DNA of 64,000 nucleotides from Ianthella basta (lineage: Eukaryota > Porifera > Demospongiae > Verongiida > Ianthellidae): contig OZ025876.1 in NCBI GenBank assembly GCA_964019415.1, positions 4,958,793 to 5,022,792 of the forward strand. Reading direction: 5' to 3'. Both the position numbers and the translations under genes were made by a program. Shown here one piece after another: positions 1,398 through 64,000 of this stretch. The notes beneath the pieces are model-generated. The model saw only the letters and a list, made by a program, of their open reading frames with translations. It was not told the origin of the DNA and did not search any database. The stretch's first letter is position 1. Each line of letters starts with the position of its first letter.

Positions 1398-4300
1398 ATG
1401 TACTCACCTGGCAGTTCTCGAGATTCCCCCTTAGGCTTCTACGACGACGAATTCGACGAGTATCCTGTTTACTACCCAGATGAAGGCCCTTATGCACATG
1501 ATAACTTTGTCCATTCTGTCGAGTTTGTCCGTAGAGAAAGCTCCGAGTCAAGTTTAGAACTCGAGAAACGTTTTGAAGAAGAGCAGCCTGAGAAGAAGTT
1601 ACTTCCATTGAAGGAGCTCTGTTGTCGGTTCGTGGGACAGAACTTCCCTTTCGGAGTTGTACAGCTGTATCCCTCACGAGTCCCTGAAGACGTGCAACGA
1701 AGAGTCGCGTTCTGGTCCTTCCCCACTGATGAGAAGAAGCTCCTCGATTACGCCAAGGTCATGGGCGGAGCTACAGAGAACGACATACAGTGTGCAAGAA
1801 GAACCAAAGTAACAGGCATGGTACAATCAGGTGAGAGTGACGTGAACTGATGATCTTGATGTGTTACAGCTAGCTGGCTATCATTTGATAGTTGTGGCTG
1901 TCATGATAATTCTGCAGGAATGTACCTTACGGGAACTGTCTCACAACCTCACAACCTGGATTACTACAGAGGCTACTCAAGAGAGAAAGAGAGCTTCAGA
2001 GCATACGTCCAGTTTGACAGAGGGTGTATTACAGCAACAAAGTGCTCATGCGGTGAGCAGAACTGGTGCAGGCATGTCTTGGCCCTCTGCCTGGCACGGC
2101 TGGATGAGAGTGTTCCTCTCCAGCTCCACCCCCCGATATCAGAGACTCTGACCAACTTGGACCGAGACCAGCTCCAGAAGCTAGTTCAGTACTTTCTTGA
2201 GAAGCTGCCCCTTGAAGGTGTGGCTGCTGTCCAAGAGATTGTGAGCAACCTCCTTGATAAAGGATCAGAGATCAACCAAACTCCAGGAGCACCTGGTGAG
2301 TAATCTCTGTAGGTCTATTCACACTTGATGCACCTTTAACAGGCCTTTGATGCGCATTGGCATCTGCTTCTTATATATTCATTTTTAAATCATATTACAG
2401 AAATAACCCCTCCTTTTTGAGTACTATCTATATATGAATAATAATAATAATATAATACAAATAGCAGTCCATACAAGCACATTAAGTTTTTTCTGGTTCC
2501 ATAGCAGATCAAAATGGCCTTGATCTATTCTAAAATTATAACATGAATAATAAAGTAATGGTCATGCTTCACTGTTGGCTAGTTAGCTAGTTAAAAAAGG
2601 AAGTCCTGACCAGGCAGCTGGCCAGTGGTCCCCAGCACTGATGCCGAGTTCCCTCTCTGAACAGCCACAGACAGCCTTTGGAAGAGGTAGGTGGTGGACC
2701 TCTCATCTCCAGATGCTTGAGCTAACCGCTGACCCAACTCCTTCAGGAATGCCATGGTCTGTGGCCCAAAGACTCCAGATGTCTATATATTATTGTCAAA
2801 TTTCCTTTCCATATTTCATTAACTATGGCACACACTATGTTGCAAGTGTTTCACTGTTGATTTTTTGACATTGTACTGCATTTGGTGTGTTGAAATTCAG
2901 TATTCACCTACTTTTTTTAACATATGGTTGCAGATTTGACAGCAGGTGGATGCCCTGGTGATAAGCCTGTCTGGCAGATGGACAAGAATGTCATCATCAG
3001 AAAGCTGAACTCAGCCTATGAGACAAAGTTGGATAAAAGATACCGTGGTTACTATGAGTGTACTTCTGCTCTGCAGGAGTATACAGCTACACTTGTAGGA
3101 TTCAAGGAGTTCACCTCAGACTCCAATTCTGGCACTCCCTCGGACTTGCACACTCTTTTGCTGTATGAAGATGACAACTTGTCCATTGCTTTGAAGTGGG
3201 CTATAGAGAAGTTATTAACAGAGATTCCGAAGAAAATGCACCAGTATGTATATTCACAACGTGATTCTATGACCAATGACCAAAAGTGGTAAGTGTCATG
3301 CAGCTAAAGTGTACTAGACCACTTCTGGTTTTGACATGGCACACCTGCATTGTTGTATGAGATTATCCCTTTAAATGTATTGTTTTAATACTACTAATGT
3401 GGCGCTCCCCATTTCTGAATACAATTGTAAGGAATTTCACAACCTAATTGGAATGGCACCCTATTTCTATTCTGTCCTTTCTCTTGTGTAGGATAGAGTG
3501 GTGCTTCTGCCGGATGCTACTCCCTGTGATGCAGATTTTCTTTACCAGCCCAGCCATTAGTAGCAGTGCCAAGGAAGATGTGACTGAGTGCCTAGCTCAG
3601 TGCTTGCAGCAGGACCTGCCCAGCCCAATTGTTGAGCTACTCAACTGCTTTAAGCAAATTGCTACTAGCGGAGTGTTAGCAGACACAAATGGTTGCCACC
3701 TATTACTTACTTGTCTTCAGCAAACACTGTTAAAAGGCATTCAGCATGACAGCAACACTGGAGTGATTGCAGTCAGTGATCCTGCCCTTCTGCACTGTGC
3801 CGTAGCTGTTGTGCAGTACATGGATTTTTACAACCGTGGGCGTGCCCCAGAGATGGAAGATGTCATTGTCACTATTTGCGGCTTTCTCTTCTCGGCAAAC
3901 CTCACTGATGCAGCATCTCTACAAGAGTTAGTAGCCATCCGTGTTGACCATGGTTTGCAAGGAGTAAGCCTTCCCTTGCTGCTGGAGTATGGTACCACAC
4001 TGCTGCATTACACGTCCAACCCTGATCTGGCCGCTGAGTTGGTCTTCAAGCTAATGGGGAACCAGCTGCCTGTCAGCAATTGCAGTAATCAAGTTCTGGT
4101 TAGTATACAGACATTGAAATTCATTGCGTTTTGTGCCTTACCTGCATATATGTATAAGTTTTTAGCCCAGGGACGAGGACAGTAGCCAGAATATACTACA
4201 GGACCGAGGGGAGGCTGAGGCCAAGTTATTATATTCTGGCATAAGTCTGAGTCCATAGGTTATAACTTATTAATACACCATTGCCATGGCAATCAAGCTA

Positions 4301-7300
4301 GAACCCAACCAAGCCTGACAAATGTAGAGAGAATGGCGATGACAACCAACTTTGCTCCTGATTCAGAGTCGAGACCAAGCTTTATCCATGCGGCATGACT
4401 CTTCCAGAACGTTCAATCATGGTAGATAGCATGTACGCTCTCTGTGCTGGTGCTGAAGACACTTTCGGACGTGTTTAACTGGGATTGTAGCAATAGTTAG
4501 ACTGAGGTAGCTACGTAGCTACCCTTGAAGCTCCCAAGGTGACTGAATCTTTGTGTGATGCTCTTGGCTAGAGAGTGTCATTGTGCGCACAGCCCAAACA
4601 GCATGTCCTGTCTGTGACTATGCAAGTGTTTCAAGGGAGGTAGCTGCGCATTTTTCCCATTGCAGTATACAGTGTGTGACGATATAACGTTAGCATTTCG
4701 TTTTGGATATACTGAACAACTTCTTCCTTTTGTATGGTAAAATATGAAACGGACAGACAAATCAAGCGGCCAATGAAATGATTGAGTCAATTTGGTGGCA
4801 GATGATGAAGTGGCTACGAATGGTTGGGTGCTAGTGGGAGACACAGTTTTGAACTTTTGGGCCGATGATCAAGACTACAGGTGTGCACAAATCTCTCTGT
4901 GGACTATGCCTGATTGTTCTGTACTACACCTCGAACAGTTTTGTCTCACATTTGTTCTAGTCTAAAGTGGAACAAAACAGACAGACTGTACAATTTACAG
5001 TTAACCCTTCTGTAAAAACATATGAAAAACATTAAGGTTATATTGTCACATACTGTAGCTATCGCATGTGGGACATGTCCACTTTGTTTACATAAGGTGA
5101 ACTTTGAGGTATTCACACCTTGAGGCGTGAAATTCCTATGATGCCATGGCTACGCTTGCGCTGCATGTGATGTGCATGTGATTTGTGAGGCCAAAGAAAT
5201 CAAACATCATATCCAGCGATGGCAAGGAACAAATTTCAGAGGACTGGAAAGAGTTCTGGTAAGAAGGAAACAGCTGATGTCTTTGCCGTTCTCAAACTTC
5301 GAAACGATTGACGTTTCATTCCTTTATACGAAGAAATCTCGCACTTGGAACATGGTGAACGTTAAATGACATCATATAATTACTTCCGTTGTGTACTCCA
5401 TATATGGGAGGTCGCAAGATTGTCACGGGTCCTGACCATCAGGGAAGGCTGGAACGAGAGCCCTCACAAGAACGCCATGTGGCATGCGAGACATTCAGTT
5501 AGAGGCGCATTGAAGGATACTTCCAAAAGCTCAGGATTGTTATCTAGGATTTCACCGCATGCATAGTATGAAGTCGGTTCCTGTGTGGAGTAACAAGGCA
5601 TGAAACTTGTCACGCAAGAAATGAAAGTAGATATTCTCCATATAACTTTTGTTAGGATTGGTTTAGTAACTATGCATGCAATGAAAACTTGGAGTGGGTG
5701 CATAGAAACAAAGCTATGCTTTTTGTTTCTTCCTCAAAGTTTCCGTCAATCACCACATCGAAGTTTTCTGCTTTTTGGAAGGCTTCGTAACCGGTGACAT
5801 TTCTTCATGCAGAAAGGCTTCATTAACAGAAAAATCATGCATACATTTAGAGAGCAGTGTTTGGTCTTCCTCTTGGGACTTGTTTGACTCCGAACCAACA
5901 AAGTCCATAAAGAGGTACAAGCAAATATATGAAGGTCAAAATCAGCCCACATTGTTTACATAGGGCATGTCCCACGTGCAATAGCTGCGTGCTTGTTGAT
6001 TTTTAGAGTGCTTGCTGTATGTGTATTGCACATGTCTATAAACTGGAATGACTTTTTCTTTTCATGCATTGCACAGTAGTGCAAAGGTGTCTACCGTGAA
6101 TGCTTTAACTTTCACGGGGTTAATCTTTTGCGTTTTTTGTGGATCAGCAGCCATCTGAATTTTCACCGTGCAGAAACATACACAAGGCTTTCGTTATCCT
6201 ACTTGAGACTCTGCCCTGCGAAAGTAAATTCGCGAACTGCGAAAGTTTAACCCTGCAAATGTTGAACCATATACAGTAATTGATTCACATCCCAATCTAC
6301 TCTTCTTGGGGTAAATCCAGAATATACCTACCATTAACCAACCTGTTGCCATAGCATTGGGGTAATAGTGCATATTTTGATCAGGTAGACATTTTAGTCA
6401 ACTCTAGTTTATTTCTGCTGACTTAGCCACAATATCTAATGCGCGGAAATGTTCACAAGACGAAACTTTTGCATTTTCGCGAATGACATCACATTCACGA
6501 ACATTTCCCATCTCTGCATATCTTATAGTACAGAAATCCATAGTATTATACCACTGTCTTATCTCCTATCGTACTTTCAGAGAGTCATGTCAAAGACGGT
6601 ACAGCACTTTTCAAACCTGTTCGCGGTGATTGCTCAACAGCAGTACCAGCAAAAGCCGTCCTGGCAGTACAGAAGGAATTGGCTAAGGAAATGTGAATAG
6701 TTGCAAGAGCTGGATAGAATTGCGGAACCTATGCTACGATTGGTAAATCACTCGAGTGCTGCCTTTTTCCAGTAATGCGACAGGCCATTCTCGCTGCAAG
6801 AGTACATGCAAGACAAAGACCGAAGGACGTGTCCAACAACTTTGCCATTCTTCAACACAGCAACGGCAAAGGGATCCTCTCTGTTTTGTATTTCCCTGCT
6901 TCAAATCAGCGTTTCTCCCTCTACTGCAATTCAGACTTCTTGATACACATGGTGTCCGCGCACGCAGCTTGCACAACCAATCGACTCCGCCATCTTCTTG
7001 CACTTCCAACAATGTGGCCTTAATACTATACTAATACATATGCTATATAATTATATAAATAATCATGCACACATTCGCAAAATAAAATGCAAAATTTTAG
7101 TTCAGCTCACAATTCACAAACATTTTGTCTCATGAGCATTTCAACACATACAGTATACATCTAAATATCTACAGGTCCACATACTTACATGATTTCATTT
7201 GCTATTCTCACTTTGGCACTTGCACAATTTATTACTCAGGTTCATCACAACTGGGCAATGAAGGCTATGATCACATCTGTGGATGAAGCTGAGATCTTCA

Positions 7301-10300
7301 CCAAGGCATGTTGTGACGTTAAGTCTAAGCTGGCTGGCCTGACCATTAAATGGCTGCAAGAAAATTGCCTTGCTCTAGAAAGCTGTCCAAATCTTACTGC
7401 TGTGCTGACAGGGATGTGGAATATGATGAGATTGGTATGCCGCTGTGGAACAGGTGACTGTCTGAAGGTGGTCAAGCTGATGACTCAGGAGCTCATTGGT
7501 AGGTTGGTGCTCTATAGAATGTTATCTGGGGATAGTGCGCCTATACTTAGGTACGTATGTAGTCTCACGTAGCCAAACCACTTTCCAAGAGAAAAGGACT
7601 GGTGTGCCTATGTCAGGGCCATAGCAAAATATGGAACATAATGAGTAAAATGTTCGCCTATTTTAAACTGGACTTGCTCTGTGCCTCAAGAACGTAAGGG
7701 TGTCTGCTTCATTTGTTGCTCCCCCCGTGGCAAGTTCTTCTCTGTACAACAATTGGTATACTTCTGGAATGTTTTTATTTCATCTGCTTTACACTAGCAA
7801 GAATAATCTGGCTGAATAATGGCAAACATGAGTCAATGCAATGCAAAGGCAACAACAGGAATTGTTGGTGTTCATTTATGCAGTTGTGCAACACTTCAGT
7901 CAAAACAGTGGATTTAAATATTGTGTGGATGGTTTCTAAAATCATGAAACTGCAAACGTTCCCTGCAATTAATGGTATCCGCTTGTTCATGTATGCAGTA
8001 AAACTATACAGTAATACTGATATAGAGTCAATTCATCTGATTTCAGCCTTGTAGCCACAACCAATGCACTATAGCCACAGCCAATGCACTATAGTCCTTT
8101 ACATTGCCGAGAAGCATCTAGACGTACAACAGGCCATGCAGGATTTTCTGATGGGAGAATGGTGAAAGGAATAATGGGAATAGGGTTGTCATAGTGACTA
8201 CATCAGAATGTTGTCGGATGTAGGGTTGATGATGAAAAGGCGGCCAAATACATCCCTGCAGTGCTGAGCACTGCACTGTCCTTCCTTGTTTCTTGACTGT
8301 TTATGTCAGCATATGTGAGAGTCGCCAGTAGAAATCGAAGATTAGCGCACTTTAGCAATTTTGAGATACTCCCGGATTTAGGTGGCCACATGTCTCCTTA
8401 GAACATTTCGCAAGTTTGAGGTGCACCTGAGCTTCCGTTGCCGAGAAATCGTCAGTTGAATGTAGCTTAATCGCCATTTTATTTATACACGTATGATACA
8501 AAATGGCAATTATAAATGACCGCTCCGCCTTAACTGCTGACTAATTCGGTCTCATTTTGTACCGTATTGATGTTTAATAGACCTATAACTGTGAAAATCA
8601 TCCACTCTAATGAGAATGAAGCCTTCAGCAGAGTGAAGCTCGTGTTACAGTGGCAGAATGTTCCAGTCAGCAAGTGGTCTTCGAAAATATGAATCTAAGG
8701 GCGAATTTTGAAGCCAAAAGGTATGAACTGTAGTTTACATAATGCTGAAGGCATGCCGTATCCAAGCGTATTCACTCAAAGGGTTGGAAAATGCCATTCA
8801 GCGGTACTTTCCGCCTCTTCAATGTTGCCAATTTTCGGTGGCCATTTTCGAATTATATGGATTTGCACTAATCATCGATTTCTACTGGCGACTCTCACAT
8901 ATACAGTATATGACAATCTAACTTTAACCCTTTAGTGTCGAATGTCACATTTACGTGTCATAAAATGCAATGTCGTTAATGCCAAATGACAAAGAGGCCT
9001 GTAAACTGACGCATTTTCTCAGGCCACAAGTCTACAACGCAGACAGCTGTTTAGCAAGACATGTACCAAAAATGGAGCCTTCCCTCAGTATGCCTACCTT
9101 GTCTCCTGGTCGCACAAGCTGCGTGCAAGCAGCTGATTTAGTTTGAGCGGAATTACACAACGTCTTTCTTATCCGTAGTTGAAGTCAAAGAACACGTGCT
9201 GCGTCACAAATTGGTGAGTGATGGACACTACATCTTCCCGTGGTACTACGCCAGCAGTTCATTTACATCATCACGTTTCAGGGCCATGAACAGACCTGGA
9301 GAGTAGCAGTGTGCAATGTCTTGCTGTGTGGCAACACGCACTCCTGCGAAGAGTTCAAGCTGCGTCCAAATAGACTGTCGAACATAATGGAGTGCATCAC
9401 ACTACACTGCCTTCCTCTTACCAGAAAGCACAAAAAACACAGTGCCTGATATTCTTCATATGCACAGCCATTTAACTTGTGCATTGGGGGGTGTGGCACG
9501 AATTATAAACTTCGGTGCTATAGGGTTAATGTTTCATTCTCTTATTAGGAAGAGCCTAAACGTTCTATAGTCTGTCTGTTTCATTTTGCTTAGAATAGAA
9601 CAGTTGCGAGACGAACACACAGCAAAGGGTATACAGCAGCAGCCCAACCATAGAAATTGTCTCCCTCCCGCCTGCACCTGACCATTCATAGTCACTTCAT
9701 TCACTGGATGCCGAATTGTCTCAATTGCTCTATTGCCCATTTTATCCATCTGTCCATTTCATACTTTACCATACAACTGAAAGGGAAACTTCATACTTTC
9801 AAAACAAAATGTTAACATTATATTGTCACATTCCGTAGGGTGCTATATGTTTCTGGATACATAGTACAATCTCTACATCTCTTCCTGATCTCCAGAAAAA
9901 GCTTTTATGTACCCCTAGTATTTGTACGTTTTATGGAGTGTAAGCTACACATAATTGGCATAAATTATAGATGCACTTACAAAGACGTGCACACACAGTT
10001 CAGTATCAACTGCATAGCTACCGACGGAAGCATGCACTCTTGTTATTGTAGCAATTTTCTTCGATTCCAGCCCAAATCTATATATATAAAGAAGGAGTTG
10101 AGCAGAACGGTTGTTCGCGAACTCCTCCCGCGAGCAACGGCGCATGGACACCAAACTTTCCCAGACTATGGACACCACACCCGGTCTCAATCTAAGGGGG
10201 GCGACGTGCGCGAAGAAGTCCCTGCCGAGGAGTGCGCGGCAGAAAGCCTCCAAACGACCGTCCGCCATATTGGATTTACGGAGAAAATATATGGTTTTCC

Positions 10301-13300
10301 GCGCACGTTCCTATGCTGCCAATACAAAAGAAGAACTCCAACCGTTGTTCGCGAAATCCTCCCGCGAACATCGACGAAACGTGCCCAAACATTCCCAGCT
10401 GTCGCACACTGTACCTCACATCAATATATGGTGGTAGACGTGCTAACATAAGCTGCTACCAAGGAGCGCACGGCGATAACCCAGGATGAACCAACCGTCA
10501 GCCATCTTGGATCTTGGAAGAAAGTATCCCGTATCCTAGGCATTCGCGCAGGTTCGAGGATTACACCCAAGCTAGCGCTATGCCGAAGCTGAGAAAAAGG
10601 AAAGGGGGGTTGTCTCACACACAGAAACCATTGGCTTCTTACAATTATCCGTTGTTTGTCTACAGTGATCTTCCATGTAAATTGCATGCACACATGGTAG
10701 GTCAGTCACACTGACATCACCAGGCCAGCCTGGACTATCCTTTGCCAGAGCATGCATGACCAGCCAGTGCATTACTAGCTGGGGCCTGAGTAGCAATGGC
10801 ATTACCAGCCTGTGTCCGACCAGCTGGCATATGCCGAGCACGCGGAGGCAGGTCTGTCCGCTAGTCTATATATATAAAGAAGGAGTTGAGCAGAACGGTT
10901 GTCTGCGAATTCCTCCCGCGAGCAACGACACATCGACACCAAACTTTCCCAGATTATGGACGCCAGACACAGTCTCGATCTAAGGGGGGCGACGTGCGTG
11001 AAGAAGCCCCTGCCGAGGAGTGCGCGGCAAAAAACCTCCAAACGACCGTCAGCCATCTTGGATTTACGGTGAAAATATACGGTTTTCCGGGCACGCTCCT
11101 ATGCTGCCAATACAAAGTAAGAACCCCAACCGTTGTTCGCAAACTCCTCCCACGAACGTTGACAAAACGCGCCCAAACGTTCCCAGCCGTCGTACGCTGT
11201 ACCTCACATCAAAATTAAAGTGGTAGACGTGCTAAAATAAGCTGCTGCCGAGGAGCGCGGGGCGAAAACCCAGGATGAACCGACCGTCGGCCATCTTGGA
11301 TCTGCGATAAACATACAGGACCCCTCTACAGGACCACTAGACCCCCACAGGAAGCACTCGACCACTTTACAGTTTACCCTCCTATATACAGGGCCTGCCA
11401 AAGGCGGGGGCCTTGCATCTAGTATTTTATAATAATGGATCTTTATTAATGTTTCGGCCATAATGCTGTGGCCTTTATTAGAGTACACACTGAGCCAAAA
11501 ATCAATAGGGCTTGTCACTAAATAGTACATCAGAAGTGTATGTACTTGTATAATTTGACATGTGCAGCTACAGAGTCCGTATGATTTGCGCTCTGTTTAC
11601 TACCCTAATCTCAGGGTAGTAAACTGGCCATGCACCCCTTTATCATAGTCACGATTCGAAAGGTCACAAGAATCAGTTAAGTAAACTACAAATGCAATGG
11701 GTAAACATGCCAGAACACCATGGCAGACATGGAGAAATGCAGGCGACTCTTATAGAGCTGGGCCAGGCCAGATTTTGGTGTATTCCAAGAAATGAAGTGC
11801 CCGCAAACATTCTGAGCCGACAGACGATCATCCATAGCTTGTGAAGTGGCTTGCCAGTTCCTCACGGAAGCGTTGCAGTTGCACTTTGAAATTTGTCATT
11901 AAAATTGCAGCAAGCCCATTATAGTATGCATGCCTACTTGGGCACATAGCTCTTGTATGGCCTTCATGGCCCTGTTATTACTATAATTCTTAGCAATTGC
12001 AATTAACACTAAGGTATATTAAGAGGTTATTTAGAGTTAATGTTATTATTGAAAGCTACATATTGAAACCTGACTTTAGTAGTTGTATTTTGTTGTGCAC
12101 ACATCCAGGTCTGCTGTCTTCGACTCTCCCCATCAGCAATTCAGCACATGGAAGAGAAGGTGCTGACAGCGAAGAGAGTAACTTGCCTGTGGACATTATG
12201 GCAGACTCCTTCACTGGTCTTCTAGTAGACCTGTTCACTATGCTGCCAACAGTTGATGGCCAAGAGCTCTTTGGTACACTCCACAAAGCTTACCCTACAC
12301 CAGTGGATGCTAAGAGATCCTTAGAAATGAGTCGTTATGGCTACAACGATTGGCAGCAATGCTTACTGGATGGAGCCACTGTACTTTCACAGACTCAGAA
12401 TGCAACTTTCTTTCCCAGCAAACCACCAATGGAAGGCTTTGAATGTCAGCTAGAAGAGGCCATCCAAAGGTATAGCTATGCTGGTAGGTACCATCAGGCC
12501 AATGCTGCATTGACATCTCAAGACGACAGTGAACAAGCCGAAATTCTCCAGGTCTGCCGCACTCAGTGCTCCGTGTCTGACAGCCATGTCTCCTTTCTGA
12601 AACAGCTACACAAGTGCCTACTAGAAGCCCATGCACCCCTTCAATTGCAAATGCAGTTTCTCGTTGATCAGGTTTCCAACTGTCTTCATTATAATTGGGC
12701 ACGCAGGGGCCGTGGGCATGCCTACTACGAGTATAGACGTGGTAATAGAGGTCACGGTCGTGATCAATCTGTACTTGCCTGTAATGAAATTGGAGCCTTT
12801 CTACAGGTACTCAATGACATGTGGAAGTATTCAATATCGCCAGAGAATGCCATTGACTTGCTGGAATCTGTGCAGGATGATGCAACTCCACAAGTCTCTG
12901 ATGTCATGTGTGACATCCTGATATCGGTACTTGATTGTGAGGCATCTCTTCATCTACGCATCTTTAAACTCATTAGCAAGATTAGCTTGAAGCCACAGCA
13001 CATTCTCAATGCTGTGTCTGTAGTTAGTTACAACATGTCTGGTGAGGCTCAGAGCAGTGATGAATGCAGGACCACATTCATACGGTGTGCTGAAACTCTT
13101 GGAAAGGCTTACAAACAATATAAGGATTCCGGTACTGCCGAGGAAGCATTGTTACCGTGCAGAGTGAAAGCTGTGGGTCTTCTACATCAGGCAAGATCCA
13201 TCCCAGTAGCCAGGTCAACACATCAACTTGAATTCATGTACCAGTCAAGTGGAGTAGATGTGTCGAGTGTGATGCATGTTGTGTGTGACTCAGGGCAGGA

Positions 13301-25604: not shown

Positions 25605-25662
25605 CAACACATTCGACCATATACGCACGTCTGTCCGTGGTACGACAGACGGCCGAGACCTC

Positions 25663-38963
<13,301 letters not shown>

Positions 38964-41419: not shown

Positions 41420-41506
41420 ATGAATGATACTATGCAGCATTCTAGTCCATCATGGATGCAAGGGGGCGGATCGAGCGAGTACGCGACAGAGGAGACGCCC
41501 ACGCGG

Positions 41507-41542
41507 CACGTGATCTTCCAGAAAGAGAGGGGTGGCCACGTG
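41507..41542. promoter_or_regulatory. Two CACGTG E-boxes upstream of gene D coding region
   Basis: CACGTG at 41507-41512 (followed by ATCTTCCA, as in gene E) and at 41537-41542. If transcription starts downstream of them, as spacing in A, C and E suggests, the ATG at 41420 cannot be used. Confidence 0.4.
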
Positions 41543-41681
41543 TATGCACGCTCGATCCAACTTGTCTATGCAGCAGCATTGACAGACGGCGAGAAAGAGC
41601 TCATTTACTCACCTGACAGTTCTCCAGCGGCACCGTACGACGCCTACCACTGCTATTACGAAGTGTGTGCTTACTTCCCGA

Positions 41682-50600: not shown

Positions 50601-53600
50601 TGAGCTCTTGTTCTTGATGAGTAAGCAAACTTAGGTCGGAGAGAAGCACAGTGCTAGGCTAAATAGGCTGCACCACTGAAGAGAGAGAGTGACCCCTGAA
50701 AAGTGAACTAATATGGTGGAAGGCACACTGCTGAAATATCATGAAACCTGAGCCAACAGTCTGTCATTGTTGACATGTTCTGTGAATCTCCCAAGTTTTA
50801 AACCTGCTAATTTACTTTTGCGGCAAGTTTTGTGCCCGCCAATGTTTCCCACTATACAGTAATACCAAGAGTAGATAAGAGATGAGAGTACACAACCACG
50901 TACACCCGCCTGTAACAACATTTTTCTAAAATGGCACAGCAAAACGTCATGCATTGGCATGGCTGCGTATAATTTATTCTGACGTAATGGCAATGGCTGC
51001 GTAGCTACATAGAGTGACACCTACGCAATATGTTCACAAAGACAGAACGAGTTCTACCAAGAGTTCGAAGAGTTGACAAAGCATTCGATAGGAGATTTAG
51101 CAGGAGTGATCAGCACAGAGCTGCGTAATGCGATGCCAAGCACACACAGACCAGTGGATTGAGTTAATAGTATTCATCCATTACATCAGAATATTAGCAG
51201 CGTTACCATGCCCACATGTGATGTGCTGCTACGGCAATTTAGAAAAATGCTGTTATACACGCAGGGATACGCAGTTGCGTACTCTCATCTCTTATCTATT
51301 CTTGATAATACTTAACACCAGACCCTTTTACACATGGTGTGCACATGATATGGCTTGATTTTGATTGCTATGTATGTCTAATTTATGTTACCTTGCATAA
51401 TTTATTATTCAGATTTATCACAACTGGGCAAAAACGGCAATGATCACAACTGTGGATAAAGCTGAGATCTTCACAAAGGCATGTCCTGAGGTGATTTCTA
51501 AGCTAGCTGACCTCTCCATAAAGTGGTTGCAACAAACCTGCCTTGATCTGGGAAGTTTTCCTAATCCCACTATTGTGCTGACAGTGATGTGGAACATGAT
51601 GAGACTGGTGTGTCGTTGTGGAACAGGTGACTGTCTGAAGGTAGTCAGGCAGATGACTGAGAAGCTCATTTGTAAGTTCACACTCTATAGAATGTTCTAT
51701 GGGTGTAATGTTCCTTGTCTTGCATATGGTACAGTGCATGGAAAAGGTAATGGCGACCAAAAACTGGCAATAACTTTCGCCTTTTAATCAGTAATGAGTG
51801 GCAATCGGTGAAACAGTAACTGTTAGCATGCAATGGTTACCAGTTAATGTGACGGCATCGGAATTATATGCACAATGGTATGTTCCAGGTGTTCAGTGAT
51901 AGCGAACAGCAGGGAGGATGGTCTTAACTGCAAACAGCAGATCATGCAGCTTTACTTCAAGCCTGGAGATGTCCAGTTAGAGAATCATCAAAGTCCTAGT
52001 AAAAGATAGACTCAAAATCCCCAAGACGACTGATTGGACCACAATTTCCAGGTACAAGGTGTGCGTAATGTGTAACTCCATTTCATCTGCCAAGAAACGT
52101 TGGCTAGTCTCCTACCTAAACTACCACTCGTCTGTCAGCCATTGTGATGTGACATTATTTTACTATTCCTCGAAAACATGGAGGCTACGAAGCAGTTTGA
52201 GCTCTAGGTTTAGAGGCTGATTGGTTGACGCTGCAAGCTCACACTTGAAGTACTGGCTATCACTGAAACCATAGATACTCAGTTTAGGGTTGAGTATCTA
52301 TGCTGAAACACAAATGCAAGCCGCTACATACATACGTGTGTGCGAAACCGTTAACCATTAAACGGTAACCACCACTGGTTAACATGTTGTGACGATCAGT
52401 ACCTAACCCATTGGTGCCTAATGACCGGAAAACTGGTCAGTATTATGCAACCCCTATATGCCGAATGACTGGTTTTCTGTTCACTTCCAGTAGGGTCTAA
52501 AGTCGAGCCTCTTCTGAAGCCTAGAAGAAAAGTGCCGTCATTTTAACACTGCCACTGCAATGTATAGTATCTTGTTAGTTTACGTTGCCCAAAACAAGGC
52601 ATTTGCAAATAGCGAAGTATGCAAAGTTGCATGGTAATCGATACCATTTTACAACTTTTCCACAGAAAGGAGCCTTCTCCAAGCGCACTTCCGGAGATCC
52701 CCAAATATTTCCAAGAAGTGGTCCACAATCATGCATAGAGACTTCCTTGCAGATTTCAATTTCCAGCGCTGTCATTTGTGGGTAGATTTGACAAATGGGA
52801 CCCACTTGTTGCTATTTGTCGATTTTGAGTTAGCGGTACTGGGTGGAAGTACAGTAGATGAGCTCCAGATCTCCAGAATTTGTAAGTAGTATTTACACTT
52901 TGTATTTCACATCACCAATCACTTGCCCACTCACAACTACCGATGTTACACAAAATTTGTAATAGACCAGTTGCATGTAAGCGATGGTATGTTAGTTGAT
53001 GACAACTCATGTAGACTACTGCCTGGCCTGCATGGCCTGTATCTATGGCAGAGCACAGCCACAAGCTGTTCAAGTCCTTCCCCATTTGCAGCACATCACA
53101 TACAATCACAGAAACAATTTTTCAATGCACTTTAACTTTAATTTAACTATTTGTTCGAATGGTGACATAAGGAGCAAATAATGGTGACATAAGGATTTGC
53201 TCCTTATGTCACCATTCGAACAAATATGTTTGATAACAGGACCCCAATGATGACATCACTAGGAGTGAAATTCATCAAGACTTATACACAACTGGTCTGT
53301 TACTAATGGGTATTGCTGTCTCCCTCTTATGCTGGGGGTATTGTCCTTTATTAGTTTCTTCTCTGGCCTTTGTGGCTTTGCAGTTTATAGTGTTTGCATT
53401 TGTGTGTGTGTGTGATGGCCGGCATTGGCTTAAACTACAGTACACATCTTAAAATTGTACCATTACCCAAACTGGTACATAGCAACTTGTTAACTCATTA
53501 TGCCCAACTTCAACATTTGCACACGTGCTTCAAGGGCCCAAATTCAAAATGGCAGATGACATATTAAAATGAGCTTTGGAATTGGTCATACTGTTCCAAA

Positions 53601-56600
53601 AGTAGGCTGTGACATGATCTTGACCCACCTCGATACCCTTTGTAAGTGTGAGTAAGACAAGAAAGGAGAGTAGTCACTTATTGTCAACCTGCTGCCACTT
53701 CTGCAATACATGGAATGTACCCAAGGACCATTTTGATGTTGGTCTACTTGTTTGCAAGTGGCCTGCTTCTGTGTTAGTTGCTGGCACGCATTGCTGGTGG
53801 TTCAGTTACTGTTCTGTTCATGTAGAAGATCATGGCCACAGGACTGCCAGTTGCTGCAAATGACTCGAAGCTGTTGCTTTGGTTTTGGGCATGGACAGGA
53901 AGTGTTCTAAATTTTTGTCATAAGTGGCTGTAAATGGCTGCGCGCATGCTAAGAAAAAGTGAGGAAGTAAGCCAGATGCTCATTGCTGTCTTTGTTTCAT
54001 TCGGCTACAAGTCCTGTTGATGCTGTTCATTTTCATTCAGTTGGTGCCACAATGGACTTCAGTGATCACGAGTTGCAGTAGCCTTGACCTGCTGTTGCAT
54101 GGTCATTTCAAAAGCAGCAATTTCAATGAAGACACCCCTTGAGAGAGTGTGCTCTGATGATTTACCTTTGCTCTAATGTTTTGTCCTAAATTCTAACTAT
54201 TTAACTAACTAACACCTTCAACAGTTTTGTCCATTCCAGCTCCAATGGCACCAAATGCGAAATTTTCCCTAACGGTAGCTGTTAACTGTGGTGCAGATTC
54301 CACTTAACACTTAATGTTGGTATTCAGACTAAATGGCATCCAACATTGGTGAGAAGTAACGTAGAGGTGGTTTCAGTTGTGGTGTGTTATTTATACTACA
54401 ACTGATGCTGAATGGTAGAACAAATTGTTGTACTTCTGCCTTTATTTGTCATAGTTACTGTATAGTGTAGGCACACGGATGCAAATCAATTCCAGTACTC
54501 CACAATTACTCCTCTATTTTGAAGAAGATGCAGAGCAAGTGTTTATATAACTCTGTTCTCTTCAGCTGCACTTATCTCACTATATAGGCTCATTGTTGCG
54601 TCATATGTGAATGAAAGGCTTTTGAGCATTTTACACAGCATAAATGTCATACAACATTTTAGGACATTTCAACCTGTGTTTCCTTGTCAGCTGAACAACT
54701 GAAAAATGAGCGAGAGGGAGCTAATAAATACTAAGTAAACTAATGACGTCATAAAGAAGGATGAGTGAAAAGGCGGGAAGTTTAAACCTTTTAATTACCA
54801 ACGGCACATATATGCATCAAGGTATTGCATGCACTTAAGTGCCAATGACGCATATATGTGTCAAAGACAAGGCGCACACGTTTATGGTGTTTTTCATCTA
54901 CTATGAAAGGACAGCAGCTCAGAGTGGTTTGTAGAAAATTTACTAGTCCTCTGTGCGAAGTCTGCCACTGCGCAAGATAAGTAAACGCATGTTTGGTGGC
55001 GTGTTGTAAGTACACATGATCAATGTGGAAGCAAGTTAGATGACAAGGAGGTAATGCAATATGTGAATATCCTACATATTGAGCCAAAAGAGCAGTGAAT
55101 GTGGAAACTTTTCTTCCTTTTCGGCAAAGCATTCTTCAGACCTACTGTAACTTTGCTGCCCACATTTCGCATACTGCCTTATGGCAGATCTGAAAAAAAA
55201 TGTAAGTTTCTTGTGGCAAGTACTGTACCTGTATTCATCGTACATGCATAGAACAGTACATTTTTATGACACATATACTGTATGTATTGAAACCAGACCT
55301 TAGTTTACTAGTGGTATTTTGTTTTGCACACAGGTCTGCTGTCCTCAATTCTCCCCAGGCATAGTCCAACACATGGAACAGAAAGTGCTGACAGCAAAAC
55401 CAGTGACCTGCCTTTGGACATTATGGCAGACTCCTTCACTTCTCTGCTAGTAGACCTGTTCACAATGCTGCCAGCAGTTGATGGCCAAGAGCTCTTTGAT
55501 ACCCTTCACAAAGTTTACCCTACACCACTGGATGCCAAGAGATCCTTGGAAATGGTATATTATGAATACAGTGCATGGCGTCGGCGCTGCTTAGATGGAG
55601 CCACTGCATTTTCAATGACTCACCATACAACTTTCTTTCCAAGCGAACCGCCATTGGAAGGCTTTGAACATGAACTAGAAGAGGCCAGTCGAAGGTATGG
55701 ATATATATCAAGTCATCACCACTCTGCCGCAAGACCAGAACCTCATTGTGACTGTGAAAGAACTGAAATTCTGCAACTTTGTCGCACCCAGTGCTCAGTG
55801 TCTACCAGCCATATCTCTTTTCTGGAGAACCTACACAAGGCCCTACAAGAAGCCAATGGACCCTTTCAGTTTCAACTGCAGCTTCTCACTGCTCAAGTTT
55901 CCAACTGTTTTAGTTATGACTGGGCACATCCTGCCCCTGTTTTTATTTACAACCGGCGTAGATGTGGTTACGGTGGTTTCAATCCCAGGGAATCTGTACT
56001 TGCATGTAATGACATTGGATCTGCTCTTCAAGCACTCAAGGCTATGTGGATGTTTTCAATGACACCAGAGAGTGTCCTTAGCTTGCTAGAATCTCTGCAG
56101 GATCACGCATCTCCACAGATCTTCAATATCATGTATGATATCCTGATATCTGTACTTAATTGTGCGGCATATCTTCATATGCACATTTTTGAGCTCATCC
56201 ACAAGTTTACCTTGAAACCAGGATACATTCTCCATGCTGTGAATGTTGTTACCTGCGGTATATCTGGTAAGAATCAGGACAGTGATGAATGCAGAATCAC
56301 TTTCATACAGTGTGCTGAAGCTCTTGGAACATCATACAACCAGCATAAGGCACTAGGTGCTGATGAAGAAACATTGTTTAAGCTCAGATGTAATGCTGTC
56401 GACCTACTGCATCAGGCAGTATCCATCTCTGTAGCTATGTCACCACAGTTAGAATCTGTGTACCAGTCAAGCTCCATAGGAGTAGATGTACTGAGTCTGA
56501 TGCAGGTAGTGTGTGACTCAGGGGAGGATGCCTTGGCTGACTTGCTTGCTGTGGTGGTGATACATCCAGGAGGCTGCCTTTTGCAAACTCTGAAGAAAAT

Positions 56601-56922
56601 GGATCAACTTGGTGACTACTATTTCAAGGACGGTGGTCCATCAAAACCTTTGCAGGTGTATCCTTTCAAGAAAATGGTTTTATCCTTGCTGAAGAGGAGA
56701 AAGAACAAGATTCAGACACTTGCAGACTTGCATGGAGATTCTGGAAAAGTTAGAAAACGTATTGTTGACCTCCAGGCTTGTTTTAAGTTTGTGGGAGTGG
56801 AAGAAAACATCAGTACTTTCCTTTCACGGAAACGTTTACATCCCTATAGTAAAAAAGGAAAAATGACATCAAAACGCTTGCGGGTTCACATGGAGAAGCA
56901 GCCTGAGGAGAGTTGTCAATGA
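41682..56922 (+). CDS. Gene D: SWIM zinc-finger (ZSWIM8/EBAX-like) protein, damaged 5' end
   Basis: Exons 41682-42033 (start uncertain), 42141-42524, 45218-45563, 49465-50071, 51413-51671 and 55334-56922 join in frame to 1178 residues. Where A and C have the start codon within CATGTACTCAC, D has CATTTACTCAC (about 41602-41612). An extra G in the run at about 41716-41719 then shifts the frame, so the upstream ATG at 41420 ends at a stop near 41765. The first usable in-frame ATG is 41682, removing about 30 N-terminal residues but keeping PLKELCCRFV (43-52) and the SWIM finger (C162, C164, C170, H172). From there no stop or frame break occurs, so the gene may be alive with a shortened N-terminus. 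The C-terminal tail (KRLHPYSKKGKM and on) shares gene C's out-of-frame duplication. A possible ATTAAA lies at 57085. Confidence 0.82.
42525..45217 (+). other. Intron 2 of gene D
   Basis: A 2.7-kb phase-1 intron. It holds a TTTCACGA-type repeat around 42730-42860, the HIRAN-like remnant 42946-43190, and a TAGTCTCGCATGCC motif near 44253 related to the TIR family ends. Short frames at 43489-44900 were not recognised. Confidence 0.55.
42946..43190 (+). pseudogene. HIRAN-like domain remnant
   Basis: Across frames the plus strand reads CVRGYHVYKDV, then GEELQCARE, CAVAIPEDNEVVGHI and RKISCVCALLFPK. This order resembles a HIRAN-type domain that is abundant in invertebrate repeats (VRGYHVYKDVW, then VVGHxPRKxS). 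Stops and frame shifts show that it is dead. It is flanked by TTTCACGA-type repeat sequence. Confidence 0.45.
45699..45824. repeat. Palindromic element, family member 3
   Basis: Arms with TTAAATGCTGACCAA, GGTGTC and GATTTAGA are mirrored around GAGGGCGCGAAGTGCCCGAG, the reverse complement of the core seen at 35187 and 37054. Confidence 0.75.
46270..46390 (+). repeat. Array of short hairpins
   Basis: GCTCTAAATTGTTATTTAGAGC, itself a near-palindrome, occurs three times back to back (46323-46390), with a fourth variant at 46270-46291. Confidence 0.85.
46376..46672 (+). repeat. 148-bp tandem duplication
   Basis: ATAGGCGCGAACGCCACGC through TTACCATGGCAACGGGATCT recurs at a period of 148 with few changes. 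Its start continues the hairpin array. Confidence 0.85.
46880..48590 (-). mobile_element. LINE reverse-transcriptase remnant, interrupted
   Basis: Read on the minus strand from high to low coordinates: GGLDGHWPQHLK, FLLGASSVALEK, RPIAV (48350-48140); after the inserted foldback, LKLDMKNAFN (near 47390), QSAEDIQQRDPLGPLLFCLT, a DDGTLGGS active-site region (near 47170), then LELVDRAAADLGLQLNHDKS (47148-46882). Frame shifts and stops show that it is dead. Confidence 0.7.
47473..47831. mobile_element. Foldback MITE inserted in the LINE remnant
   Basis: Arms 47473-47596 and 47705-47831 are reverse complements (TGACAAG, GGTACTTACCT, GCATACAGGTTGAC, TTTTGCCACTGTGCTGG, AGGCCTTTTCGGAGAATC, CTCCTCATCAGCAG). 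They are about 120 bp each with a 110-bp centre. The element splits the LINE coding sequence, so it arrived later. Confidence 0.8.
48771..49070 (-). pseudogene. Second RecQ-like helicase N-terminal fragment
   Basis: The minus-strand frame reads LSQQQVAAILCIVNGKD, TVVCLPTGHGKSVIFEVLPW. This is again the Q-like motif and Walker A (GHGKS) of RecQ helicases, followed by loss of similarity. The first 55 bases of the reading frame (49013-49067) are repeated in inverted orientation at 48793-48850, making a foldback. A possible outer end pair is TTAGTCTAGCCA at 48002 and its mirror at about 49247-49256, but this is uncertain. Confidence 0.55.
50072..51412 (+). other. Intron 4 of gene D
   Basis: A phase-0 intron of 1.3 kb. 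Its middle is the inverted-repeat element 50858-51318. Nothing else was recognised. Confidence 0.65.
50858..51318. mobile_element. Short TIR element (MITE) in intron 4 of gene D
   Basis: AAGAGTAGATAAGAGATGAG, AGTAC, then AACA(A/G)CATTTTTCTAAA at 50868-50940 is mirrored at about 51232-51308. The arms are near 70-90 bp and there is no coding capacity. Confidence 0.7.
51672..55333 (+). other. Intron 5 of gene D
   Basis: A 3.7-kb phase-1 intron. It includes a small GTTAACC/GGTAACC palindromic stretch near 52350, a TTTTGAGTTAGCGGTACTG motif at 52813 shared with 63195, and the perfect hairpin 53148-53226. The minus-strand 113-residue frame at 54791-55132 was not recognised. Confidence 0.55.
53148..53226. 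repeat. Perfect 31-bp inverted repeat with 17-base loop
   Basis: The arm 53148-53178 (TATTTGTTCGAATGGTGACA, TAAGGAGCAAA) is exactly mirrored at 53196-53226. The loop repeats ATGGTGACATAAGGA once more. An RNA copy would fold into a strong stem. Confidence 0.9.
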
Positions 56923-59278: not shown

Positions 59279-59284
59279 CACGTG
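59279..59284. promoter_or_regulatory. CACGTG E-box upstream of gene E
   Basis: In the context AGTCACGTGATCTTCCAAGA, ending 86 bases before the ATG. The flanks match those in A and D over about 14 bases. Confidence 0.45.
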
Positions 59285-59370
59285 ATCTTCCAAGAAGCCA
59301 ACCAGCTTCTTAGAATCGGTTGACTGTGTCCACTTTCGTGAGTTAGCTGAACGAGAGAGAGTCAGGCATC

Positions 59371-62300
59371 ATGTGCTCCCGTGGTAGTTCTCGAGATTTG
59401 TCTCACTACGGTGACGATGTGGACGAAGATGGATATGCTTACTACCCGGATGAAGACTCCGTTGGTGGCTTTGCCCATTCTGTCAGGCGTGTCCGTAGGG
59501 ATATCTTGGAGTCGAGCATAGAACTCGAGAAATGTTTCGGAGATGAGCCACCAGATGAACGGCCTGCCAAGAGGTTGCTCCCCTTAAAGGAGCTCTGTTG
59601 TCGGTTCGTAGGACAGAACTTCCCCTTTGGAGTGGTACAGTTGTATCCCTCACGTGTCCCAGAAGACATGCAACGAAGAATTGCGTTCTGGTCTTTCCCT
59701 GCTGACGAGAAGAAGCTCCTGGACTACGTCAAGGTCATGGGAGGAGCTACAGAGAATGACATTAAGTGTGCAAGAGGAACAAAAGTAAAAAGCATGATAC
59801 AATCAGGTGAGACGGTCAGCTAGCCATAGTTATATGTATAATTTGATTGTTTAATTATTGTTGTGACTGTCATTTCATCGTGACATCTTTTGCAGGAATG
59901 TACCTTACAGGAACAGTCTTATGCTCCCGGAGTACATGCAGTGGCTACTCAGGAGGGGAAGAAAAAGAGAGCTTCAGAGCATACGTCCAGTTTGACAGAG
60001 GGTGTATTACAACAACAAAGTGCTCTTGTGGTGAGCAGAACTGGTGCAGGCATGTCTTGGCCCTCTGCCTGGCACGGCTGGATGAGAGTGCTCCTCTCCA
60101 GCTCCACCCCCCGATATCAGAGACTCTGACCAACTTGAACCGAGACCAGCTCCAGAAGCTAGTTCAGTACTTCCTTGAGAAGTTGCCCCTTGAAGGTGTG
60201 GCTGCCATCCAGGAGATTGCAAGCGGCCTGCTTGACAAGGGGTCAGAGATCAATAAAATTCCAGGAGCACCAGGTGAGCATGTGCTTGCTTTTTGTTTGA
60301 CAACCCTGTCAGTTCATTTGCCTACCAACTGTGGCCTCTTACATGCAGTCATAATATGTATGAACATTCCTACTGCATGTCGTTTATGTCCACTACCAGC
60401 AAACATGTTGACACAAGATGAGCGTGTGGTTTTATCATTCTGTGTGTTACCATAGCTATGTCTGTGAATGTACATATTTTGTGTGTAATTTGAAGGCTGA
60501 ATTGTACACTGATTCATGCAAAACTCTATGCCAATCCACTTCTATTACCAAGAAGGCATTCCTATATATTTCCTGATGGACATCATGCTGTCCAAGGCTT
60601 GATGGAGGTTGTGGTGTCATTTCCATAGCTTTCCACTGTATGGCAAATGGGCTTATAAACTGCTTGCTCTGCTATGTTAAGTGTTAAAATTCAGTGTTCC
60701 ATTGCTTTGGCTGCAGATTTGACAGCAGGAGGGTGCCCTGGTGAGAAACCTGTGTGGCAGATGGACAAAAGTGTTATCATCAAAAGGCTGGACTCAGCCT
60801 ATGAGGTAAAGCTTGACAAAGTATATCGTGGATACTATGAGTCCTCTTCCGCTCTCCAGAGGTTTACAGCTACACTTGTAGGATTCAAGGAGTTTACCTC
60901 AGACTCTGGACCCAACACTCCGTCTGACCTGCACACCCTTCTACTGTATGAAGATGACAACTTGTCCATTGCTTTGAAGTGGGCTTTAGAGAAGTTATCG
61001 GCAGAGATTTCCACGAAAGTGTATCAACATCCATATTCACAGCTTGGTGTTATGAACAAGGACCAGAAGTGGTAAGTGCCAAGTAGATAACATATATGTG
61101 GCAGGCGCAGTTAAAAACGACGAATTAGGCATATCTTGGCGAATTTCACTTTTTTACATTTTCCGAAGGATCACACCTAGATCTAACTTTCCACCGAGTT
61201 TCAAGGTCATCTTGTACTTCTACGCGACGATTTGCGATGCTATTTGTCAATACGCATTTTGGACGAACGGCCATTTTAGAATACAGTATTTATATTATAG
61301 GGATACTTTGCAATACATATAAATAATGTATTGTGCAATAGGAGAGCTATTATCAATATACGTTATACCGCGTACAAATGAATGTACTAGAGTGTATACT
61401 TTTCGAGGAGTGGAAGTGCAACACTATGTTTTGACTGTTCCTTCGCTCTTGCTGCTCTTGCGCATCATTTTGAATGTGTACTGGCTTTATCTATTTCCTT
61501 GCGAAGTTCTGGTTGTGCTGTTTTGATGCAGCGTCGTGCATATGCTCCGACAGGGACTGTGCCCTTCTAAGTTTAACTTGCTGCTCATGAAGGCCTTTCT
61601 GTTGCACAAGGATAACAGGTGCTGAGGCCAGCCTGGCGCCCAACGATGAAGAAGCTCGTGAAATCTAGCGATATCGGCCGGGCAGACACTGAGAAGATGA
61701 CAAAGCAACTGCAACGAGAACTTCACAAGGTCCGTACGTACACAGTCTGCCCAGAATAGCAGCAAGAACGATAACAGCCAGCAATCAGCGACGAACGGTA
61801 CCTGCCAATGCTCTTGTCTCTTTCTCCATTCTGCACCCCGTCGGTCACAATCCACAGCCGTCTCCTGCATAGAGATCAGGTAGTCTTCTTCCAACAGTGC
61901 CTGCTTTTTTGCGCGGCTCCTGTTCAATCTCCTCTGTAAGTACATCAGTATCAGTGTGGATAGCAGCCTTGCTTGTGCCAGCGAGGCAGTTGTACAACTT
62001 ACATGCCCCGTAAGTGCTTCCAAAGTAGGCAGTGCTGCTGTTGAAGATACTGAGATACTCATTTTCGCGCGTCGTACTCAATCATGAGTGAACGTTCGCC
62101 CATAACTTTGCCAAACGAAGGACTTTTTCGACGGTTCCAACGTCGGCAGCAAGAACACACCTCGGTGCACAAAGTGGCCATGTTTCAACTTGATCGGACT
62201 AATAGCTTCCGAGTTACAAACGGAAATATACCGACAATTTTTGCCGACTTCCTGTGAAGAATTTTGGATCCGGAATAATTCGTCGTTTCTAAATGCGCCT

Positions 62301-64000
62301 GCCACATATACTAGGTTAATTCTGGTTTAACATGTCTCATCTACATTTCAGCATGTGGGACATGGCTGCTTTGTTTACATAATGGAATATGACATCTGAG
62401 AGGTGTTAATTCCTGTGTTGTCATGTGACATTCGCATGATTTCACAGAAAGGTCTGGACAAAATTGCCTTAAAGTTTACTATTTTGCTGCTACATATGTT
62501 CCCCAAGATGGGAGCAAGCCAAAATGTAAAGGTTTGATCGAATCATTCGAGTGGAACCGTCAAATTGCGGAAGCAACACAACATTGTCAGCCATTTTTCA
62601 AAATGTCACAAGAATACCACATGACATCACATGCAAATAGGCTTTCGCCTTTACTTTCAGGAAAACGTCGTGTCGTTGTCGATGAGAAGGCTTCTTGCCA
62701 AACTGAAGATTGAAATGGTTAGTCAAGTAAATTTTCTAGCTTTTTCATGAGGGATAATGCTGCGCATTTTCCTATCTAGAGTTATGTGACCCGAAGTTTT
62801 TAACACCAGCAAGTTGTGGTAGTTTTCTTGCTATAAGTTGTCAACGGATTGCTATAACAACTTATGCCTCATGCAAAAGTTGGATAATATGAATGCGCAT
62901 CTAATCATACCTTTCACTAGCGGCTGTGACTTTTCCTCAATAGCAACATTGGCATTTACTGCTGTGCCAGTGGCTTTGCAATTTTCAGTATAGCATGATG
63001 TACCAAAGTATTATTAACAACACTTATTCACAGGGTTACAGAGCAGTCCCTTGTCTTCCTTTTGGTGCTTCCCCCACTCTGATCCAGCAAAGCTGGTAGG
63101 AGATATTATCCAAAATACTTTGGTCACAATTGGCCGCGCATTGTTATATGTGAGCGGATTTGAGAAAAGGAACCATTTCACGCTAAAAATTAATTTTGAG
63201 TTAGTGGTACTGAGTCACAGCACAGTTGATGGACTCTCTGTTGCACTTTGTTGCGCTTCAATAGCTGCTCCCGTTCCCGAGTTACGCTCGCTCAAAGTAT
63301 GAAAATACGCTCGGTGCAATTACGAGAAAACGGCCCGTAACCCTTCCGTTTTTATATCCGTAAACATGGCGACGGCGTAATTAGTCTTCCTGGTTTGAAG
63401 CGCTGGAAAGGACTAGGCGTTTCAAACTTGGCCAGGATGTTGGGACTATACCACAGGTGCGTATGATGCAGTAATCCGACTTTACTGGAAACACGACTCG
63501 TTTGCGTGTTTTCGCCCGTACTGACACTTTATACATAGCGCGAAATGGTCCCTTTTCTCAAATCCGCTCACATATAGCCATGTCCCACATGCATCAGCAG
63601 TGGAAAGTAGCTGCATGCTATACCTCTTCTCAGCATTTGTTAGCAGATTTGAGGGTTGTGGGCACTTCACACTCTGTCAATTTTGACTTCGTAGTACTGT
63701 GTTTAAGTTAATGAGTTCTCTGTTGCACTTCATTGCACTTCAATATTGATAGCCCAATATACACTCACTCAAAATACGGAAATACTATTACTCTCGGTGC
63801 AATTTTGAGAATATGACCGTAACGCTTCTAGAAAAGGACTGCAGATTTCAAACTTAGCCAGTATGTTGGAACATTAGCACAATTGCAAACATCACTCAGT
63901 TACATGTTTTTGCCTGTAATGATATTTTATTCATATATAGCATGTCATTAAGTTCTCAAGAACATTTTTATTTGCTAGGAGACAAGAAAAAACTAGTAGA
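59371..64000 (+). CDS. Gene E: SWIM zinc-finger (ZSWIM8/EBAX-like) protein, cut by window end
   Basis: Exons 59371-59806, 59896-60273 and 60717-61071 encode the first 389 residues in frame. Exon 4 onward is not in the window, so intron 3 exceeds 2.9 kb because of inserted elements. PLKELCCRFV (71-80) is the BC-box-like motif. The SWIM finger is C188, C190, C196, H198. The N-terminus (MCSRGSSRD, acidic Y/D stretch) is closest to gene A, while the AKRLLPLK context matches C and D. Short intron 1 (89 bases) matches A, B and D. The gene appears intact as far as visible. Confidence 0.85.
61097..62306. mobile_element. TIR element with TATA target sites in intron 3 of gene E
   Basis: TATA at 61093-61096 and 62307-62310 flanks ends that begin TGTGGCAGGCGCA on both sides and pair for about 30 bases through AAACGACGAATTA. 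The 1210-bp body has a 191-residue minus-strand open frame (61487-62062) and a second shorter one (61845-62081), neither recognised. The superfamily is undetermined; TA or TATA target sites leave Tc1/mariner-type and other classes possible. Confidence 0.7.
61487..62062 (-). CDS. Unidentified open frame inside the 61-kb TIR element
   Basis: A 191-codon ATG-to-stop frame beginning MSISVSSTAALPTLEAL, with a basic central stretch (RRLNRSRAKKQALLEED) and a leucine-rich second half. I see no DDE/D or zinc-finger pattern and cannot assign a function. It may be the first exon of a transposon protein or a chance frame. Its place wholly inside the TIRs favours the former. Confidence 0.25.
   Translation of the reverse strand: MSISVSSTAALPTLEALTGHVSCTTASLAQARLLSTLILMYLQRRLNRSRAKKQALLEEDYLISMQETAVDCDRRGAEWRKRQEHWQVPFVADCWLLSFLLLFWADCVRTDLVKFSLQLLCHLLSVCPADIARFHELLHRWAPGWPQHLLSLCNRKAFMSSKLNLEGHSPCRSICTTLHQNSTTRTSQGNR
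62345..64000 (+). other. Right end of window, intron 3 of gene E, repeat-rich
   Basis: This stretch holds a GTGGGACATG end like that at 5057 (near 62353), an inverted pair TATGTGAGCGGATTTGAGAA (63147-63184) and its mirror (63538-63576), and a direct repeat. In the direct repeat, GAG(T/C)TCTCTGTTGCACTT and following at 63230-63350 recur at 63709-63825. No exon was recognised. Confidence 0.55.
63147..63576. repeat. Inverted repeat, arms of about 38 bp
   Basis: TATGTGAGCGGATTTGAGAA, then AAGG, then ACCATTTCACGC at 63147-63184, is mirrored at 63538-63576 with one or two changes. It is probably a foldback element of about 430 bp. Confidence 0.65.

Follow-up and report, generated by a model that had tools for sequence, protein, structure and literature searches.

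The closest described systems are ZSWIM8/EBAX-1/Dora, a CUL3-elongin BC receptor that acts in target-directed microRNA decay (TDMD), and ZSWIM4/5/6, which have the same superdomain. In the published structure of ZSWIM8 with CUL3 and AGO2, residues 71-290 take in the parts of the E3 superdomain and an Argonaute-reading 'TDMD sensor' extends from residue 290, E91 and E94 hold the CUL3 N-terminal tail, and mutation of E91/E94 in human ZSWIM8 lowers AGO2 polyubiquitylation and abolishes microRNA decay in cells (PMC13083262). A 64,000-nucleotide stretch of the genome of the sponge Ianthella basta (the window) lies within an array of genes that have the same superdomain order and sequence and that, unlike ZSWIM8, form a tandem multigene family. 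The array is best read, with a probability of roughly 0.7, as a set of lineage-specific cullin-RING substrate receptors whose substrate arms are fast-evolving and probably helical. To our knowledge, other animals usually carry few and dispersed ZSWIM copies, and no account of an expanded ZSWIM array was found among the papers listed in searches of the open-licence PMC literature.

The window, C9:4958793-5022792 of an assembly of 96 contigs and 209 Mb, comprises four six-exon genes in full (g1-g4) and exons 1-3 of a fifth (g5), all on the + strand and head to tail, in line with an earlier note that had proposed a tandem array of at least five ZSWIM8/EBAX-like genes. Their features are as follows, in window coordinates and with exon boundaries set by homology and splice consensus:

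1398..1830, + strand, g1 exon 1: acidic N-terminus, BC-box PLKELCCRFV, cullin-box and WSFP segment
1918..2295, + strand, g1 exon 2: SWIM finger (~2043-2075), D-domain and start of the SWIM belt, by PF04434 (21.1 bits) and alignment to ZSWIM8
2025..2204, + strand, g1 SWIM/D-domain block: array copies differ very little here at synonymous sites, a putative gene-conversion signature
2934..3288, + strand, g1 exon 3: end of the belt and start of the divergent region
3492..4098, + strand, g1 exon 4: predicted helical segment, first ~90 bases low in synonymous divergence among copies
7240..7498, + strand, g1 exon 5
12109..13784, + strand, g1 exon 6: predicted helical C-terminal region and stop codon
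16161..16587, + strand, g2 exon 1
16673..17056, + strand, g2 exon 2 (SWIM, D-domain)
19670..20024, + strand, g2 exon 3
20195..20810, + strand, g2 exon 4
21472..21727, + strand, g2 exon 5
22492..24035, + strand, g2 exon 6
25663..26065, + strand, g3 exon 1
26524..26907, + strand, g3 exon 2 (SWIM, D-domain)
30345..30702, + strand, g3 exon 3
31153..31759, + strand, g3 exon 4
32248..32503, + strand, g3 exon 5
37411..38963, + strand, g3 exon 6
41682..42033, + strand, g4 exon 1, modelled from a downstream ATG
42141..42524, + strand, g4 exon 2 (SWIM, D-domain)
45218..45563, + strand, g4 exon 3
49465..50071, + strand, g4 exon 4
51413..51671, + strand, g4 exon 5
55334..56922, + strand, g4 exon 6
59371..59806, + strand, g5 exon 1
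59896..60273, + strand, g5 exon 2 (SWIM, D-domain)
60717..61071, + strand, g5 exon 3
353..490, + strand, presumed exon 6 relic of another copy, so taken because it resembles a piece of that exon (tblastn, 50% identity over 38 residues of g1 exon 6, E 3.7e-5)

The modelled introns are all GT-AG, and the shared exon phases that had been described earlier recur as 1,1,2,0,1 in each of g1-g4, with the two of five g5 introns visible in the window in consistent phase. No g5 exons 4-6 were found inside the window, and an exon 6 open frame of this gene lies beyond it at C9:5027420-5028889. The joined frames of g1-g5 contain no internal stops and encode proteins of 1235 (g1), 1193 (g2), 1186 (g3) and 1178 (g4) amino acids, which are 57.6-68.7% identical in pairwise comparison among g1-g4 and 69.1-78.5% identical to g5. 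The BC-box motif PLKELCxxFV, like the SWIM finger noted before (CSCGEQNWCRH), is present in all five window genes. In the 110 kb upstream, four further six-exon copies (u1-u4) have the same phases; u1 is N-terminally incomplete because its start lies outside the upstream stretch examined, and u2 has a shortened exon 6. Together these nine copies form array A (C9:4.850-5.029 Mb), their joined frames being stop-free (u1 without its N-terminal start, g5 without exons 4-6) and those with a complete start encoding 1066-1240 amino acids, as against 1837 in ZSWIM8. Their divergence is too great for haplotype duplicates, with the u2/u3 pair (91%) perhaps excepted.

Genome-wide copy counts are lower bounds. 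The SWIM exon of g1 matched at least 18 places, namely nine in array A, six in a second cluster on the same contig (array B, C9:1.336-1.409 Mb), two on C5 and one on C13, so that the count of five in the window is an underestimate. The BC-box exon matched at least 19 places, the extra one being a second exon-1-like stretch within array B, and exon 6 gave 20 rows, comprising nine in array A, two on C5, eight weak ones (22-43% identity) in the array B region and one out-of-frame stretch overlapping the end of g3 exon 6.

When the five window proteins were searched as a profile against the PDB, the sole significant match was human ZSWIM8 (9rwz_N; E 1.9e-40; next row E 0.37), with profile positions 70-296 aligned to ZSWIM8 residues 73-295, which excludes chance resemblance. 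Similarly, a profile of eight array copies aligned in hhalign with ZSWIM8 residues 73-296 at a probability of 99.7 and ~37% identity, and the D-domain and SWIM belt are recognised within this match by the RDQLQK and GAPDxTAG blocks. The array thus has in common with ZSWIM8 a BC-box, a cullin-box, a SWIM finger of the form CxCx(n)CxH, a D-domain and a GAPDxTAG belt, as well as a long C-terminal region with predicted helices. With the superdomain of ZSWIM8 spanning residues 71-290 and its TDMD sensor following from 290, the homology that can be detected stops where the chassis gives way to the substrate module. The Pfam check proposed in the earlier note succeeded in part, as the SWIM family PF04434 was found in all five window proteins at E<=10 (best 8.7e-5), with exon 2 alone reaching 21.1 bits in g1 and 22.2 bits in g2, above the curated cut-off of 19.6, and full-length g1 reaching 16.8 bits, under it.

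Alignment of 18 genomic superdomains with human ZSWIM8, whose numbering is used here, showed that the zinc ligands C188, C190, C197 and H199 are kept in all 18, as are L76 and L79 of the BC-box and W111-S112-F113. Position 80 of the BC-box is a cysteine in every one of them and a serine in ZSWIM8. Between BC-box and WSFP the alignment to ZSWIM8 is free of gaps, and the VPE of this segment is kept in all nine array A copies.

The region downstream of the superdomain has no such recognisable counterpart. TPR_ZSWIM8 (PF25572) and ZSWIM4-8_C (PF21055), the part of the Pfam check that failed, were found in none of the five window proteins (g5 partial) at E<=10, whereas human ZSWIM8 as positive control gave 7.7e-79 and 2.4e-52, respectively, and a provisional human ZSWIM6 sequence gave 255.8 bits for ZSWIM4-8_C. 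A genome search with ZSWIM4-8_C returned one match (E 0.647) and none over the cut-off, and one with TPR_ZSWIM8 was empty, though control genomes gave no signal with either family. The array C-terminal profile aligned with ZSWIM8 297-1837 at an hhalign probability of 0.1, so that the Argonaute-contact positions (311-325, RBE1 395-408, F1261 and 1302-1306) could not be placed; equivalents of the TDMD sensor, RBE and F1261 were not detected in the array. Downstream parts gave a probability of 0.2 to 0.4 against a two-sequence profile of ZSWIM8 and provisional ZSWIM6. In a control, provisional ZSWIM6 matched ZSWIM8 downstream in three stretches (3e-11, 2e-8 and 3e-7), compared with nothing better than 0.23 for any array protein, and homology of this region is therefore detectable within the family. 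In ZSWIM8, the C-terminal region includes a HEAT-repeat solenoid. For g1, AlphaFold2 models predict exon 4 as helical except for two short strands (predicted local distance difference test, pLDDT, 61) and exon 6 as almost wholly helical (pLDDT 54 overall, residues 243-513 better); Foldseek found no match at E<=0.001 for either model, in tests made weak by these pLDDT values. Several family matches in the divergent part were not adopted, namely MRB1590_C (best E 0.0012; g2 exon 6 at 21.1 bits against a cut-off of 27), DUF7792 (0.01), ARM_ECM29_C (0.083) and PAN_1 (1.3).

Placement within the ZSWIM4-8 class bears on the identity proposed earlier. In the SWIM-to-belt segment, identity to human ZSWIM8 is 41-42% and to provisional ZSWIM6 43-45% for every one of the nine array A copies, which are thus slightly closer to the latter, the two reference sequences being 56% identical to each other. 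A ZSWIM-type architecture of BC-box, cullin-box and SWIM finger is supported, and a specific ZSWIM8/EBAX identity is unsupported because the array is about equidistant from both. By bit score, six of the nine copies outside array A are nearer provisional ZSWIM6 and three (B3, B5 and C13) nearer ZSWIM8. A 19-row tree with human ZSWIM8 grouped array A and the C5 pair at 93/91, with long human and C13 branches and an unsure rooting, for which reason it gives no clade claim. Human ZSWIM8 71-377 searched against the genome found no better orthologue, with 37 of 38 rows in array A, array B, C5 and C13 and the remaining one on C3 (E 0.86), which suggests that a canonical ZSWIM8 is absent elsewhere in the genome. 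In addition, a search for distant relatives with the exon 2 alignment gave 142 pattern matches in genome contigs and 182 in viral contigs, none of them confirmed. Overall, within the ZSWIM4-8 superdomain class the array resembles a fast-evolving branch of its own.

The rates at which parts of the genes evolve differ. The median ratio of nonsynonymous to synonymous substitution (dN/dS) is lowest in the superdomain (0.25), compared with 0.40 in exon 3 (both 36 pairs, nine copies), 0.49 in exon 4, 0.30 in exon 5 and 0.44 in exon 6 (28 pairs, eight copies) and 0.46 in the N-terminus, the ranges of the regions overlapping. The faster divergence of the C-terminus that had been noted before is borne out by a median dN of 0.31 in exon 6 against 0.09 in the superdomain. 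In an uncorrected scan of seven copies (u2 and g5 left out), synonymous divergence is 0.09-0.18 in the SWIM/D-domain core, 0.07-0.08 at the start of exon 4 and ~0.2-0.7 elsewhere. Within array A, synonymous codons of the core are 93-96% identical in four of five 15-column segments and 82% in the fifth, which is mostly gap, compared with 70-76% in the adjoining segments and 39-70% between array A and the C5 pair in the core. A fixed nucleotide constraint on the low-divergence block of exon 2 is ruled out, the block not being conserved against the C5 pair, and because the core is uniform within array A and divergent from that pair, gene conversion among array members appears to be the cause of its uniformity. 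No pair had a dN/dS above 0.80 in any region, and the single 30-codon window above 1 in a sliding scan (1.06) falls in the low-divergence start of exon 4, so that positive selection is not claimed. The diversification of copies suggested earlier is thereby reduced to divergence, since no region has a dN/dS above 1.

On the preferred reading, the BC-box, cullin-box, SWIM finger, D-domain and belt (~225 residues) would probably form a ZSWIM8-like dimeric E3 superdomain, in which the BC-box would bind elongin C, the cullin-box would bind a cullin (CUL3 likelier than CUL2) and the D-domain would pair two protomers. The remaining ~900 residues, helical where the models are usable, would give two arms presenting substrate for ubiquitylation, as in an active ligase. 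The array would have grown by tandem duplication, with gene conversion between copies keeping the SWIM/D-domain core uniform and the arms free to drift. As the front part matches the chassis of ZSWIM8 and the back part is not recognisably related, the same chassis may have been put to use on a range of targets. Several points weigh against this reading. The glutamates that hold the CUL3 tail in ZSWIM8 are lost in array A, where E91 is replaced by G and E94 by Q in all nine copies; across the 18 superdomains, the E91 position is E in six (all six of array B), G in 11 and Q in one, and E94 is kept in none (array B 0/6). Use of CUL3 by the array is possibly weaker or different, since mutants at these positions are impaired in ZSWIM8. 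Furthermore, the substrate part is without a recognised relative by sequence, the structure models are weak and gave no decisive fold match, and the gene models derive exclusively from homology and splice consensus.

The loss of the two glutamates also raises the question of whether CUL2 or CUL5 could be the partner, as for ordinary BC-box proteins. The BC-boxes of array A, with their cysteine, fit the classic consensus ([APST]LxxxCxxx[AILV]) in 9/9 copies, and ZSWIM4 is reported to bind CUL2 (PMC10897318); the gap-free alignment to ZSWIM8 between BC-box and WSFP and the conserved VPE nevertheless point the other way, as does the reported structural clash of the ZSWIM-specific CUL3-box with CUL2 (PMC13083262), and the alternative is rated as tentative and on balance unlikely. 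A strong CUL3 match is present in the genome at C22:5.703-5.709 Mb, in pieces 51-79% identical to human. A different alternative, by which the copies would be duplicated true ZSWIM8 orthologues that grip Argonaute in microRNA decay and are possibly matched to several Argonaute genes, shares the superdomain evidence with the preferred reading, but the microRNA-decay role raised in the earlier note finds no support in the sequence and the Argonaute-gripping region is not alignable, so that this alternative appears highly improbable. It is also doubtful that the array is decaying or neutral, with mostly redundant copies under relaxed constraint and no new functions. The truncated exon 6 of u2, the lost original start of g4, the presumed relic exon, the unusual g3 and g4 tails, at whose ends an out-of-frame, family-like motif sits, and a dN/dS of ~0.3-0.5 outside the superdomain with positive selection unseen would all fit such decay; yet seven copies (u1, u3, u4 and g1-g4, with u1 N-terminally incomplete) maintain open frames of 1159-1240 codons, six of these seven (u1 not included) at synonymous distances of 0.38-0.66, and the superdomain keeps its dN/dS of 0.25.

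Reading the array as receptors in general can be distinguished from a stronger version, in which gene conversion would keep the dimeric superdomain uniform and the solenoid arms of each copy would be specific to a substrate of their own, such as a foreign or selfish protein or a particular Argonaute; this version is speculative and considered improbable at present. If true, it would amount to a cullin-RING repertoire on a chassis known for reading microRNA-target complexes. Many chassis copies with unrecognisable substrate arms suggest a superdomain that works as a reusable module; the array also offers natural test variants of it, including receptors without the two CUL3-relevant glutamates. 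In addition, a gene with BC-box and SWIM finger in an early-branching animal should not be taken as evidence of TDMD. Elsewhere in the genome, Piwi-domain matches are clustered at C18:226312-250051 and C23:1113758-1121038, with more at C8:8063829-8065189, and Argonaute/Piwi genes seem to be locally duplicated too. A pattern search for the silicatein hallmark of siliceous sponges gave seven matches, against two with the reversed pattern as control, and none fell at the cathepsin-like loci.

Some copies are irregular in their details. In g4, an ATT stands at 41603 where neighbours have the start ATG, the N-terminal frame is shifted and the original start seems lost; an open frame at 41402-41767 (+ strand), overlapping the modelled start, resembles the N-terminus of other copies and may mark g4 as a decaying or re-started gene. 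The last residues of the modelled g3 and g4 tails are unlike those of other copies, and different splicing or reading may account for the true ends. An out-of-frame second copy of the family C-terminal motif lies at the end of g3 exon 6 (38846-38986, + strand; NKIKTLADSHAETRKVRQFIND), and likewise an out-of-frame copy at the end of g4 exon 6 (~56850-56920).

The introns hold further elements. Intron 2 of g2 contains a reverse transcriptase fragment (17685-18629, + strand; RVT_1, 1e-38), and the 41-kb gap between u1 and u2 (C9:4862462-4903356) contains, by eye, reverse-transcriptase-like (4867977, - strand) and transposase-like (4882801, + strand) open frames. Two long CA microsatellites (29288-29375 and 29883-30025) lie in g3 intron 2. 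Intron 3 of g4 carries a 148-bp tandem repeat in two copies at 93% (46371-46671), a 120-bp inverted repeat (47476-47595 / 47711-47830) and a DEAD-box/helicase-like fragment under the curated cut-off (48771-49094, - strand; 5.9e-5). A tRNA-like element, possibly a tRNA-derived repeat, is found in g2 intron 4 (21152-21224, + strand; 44.7 bits against the Rfam tRNA model).

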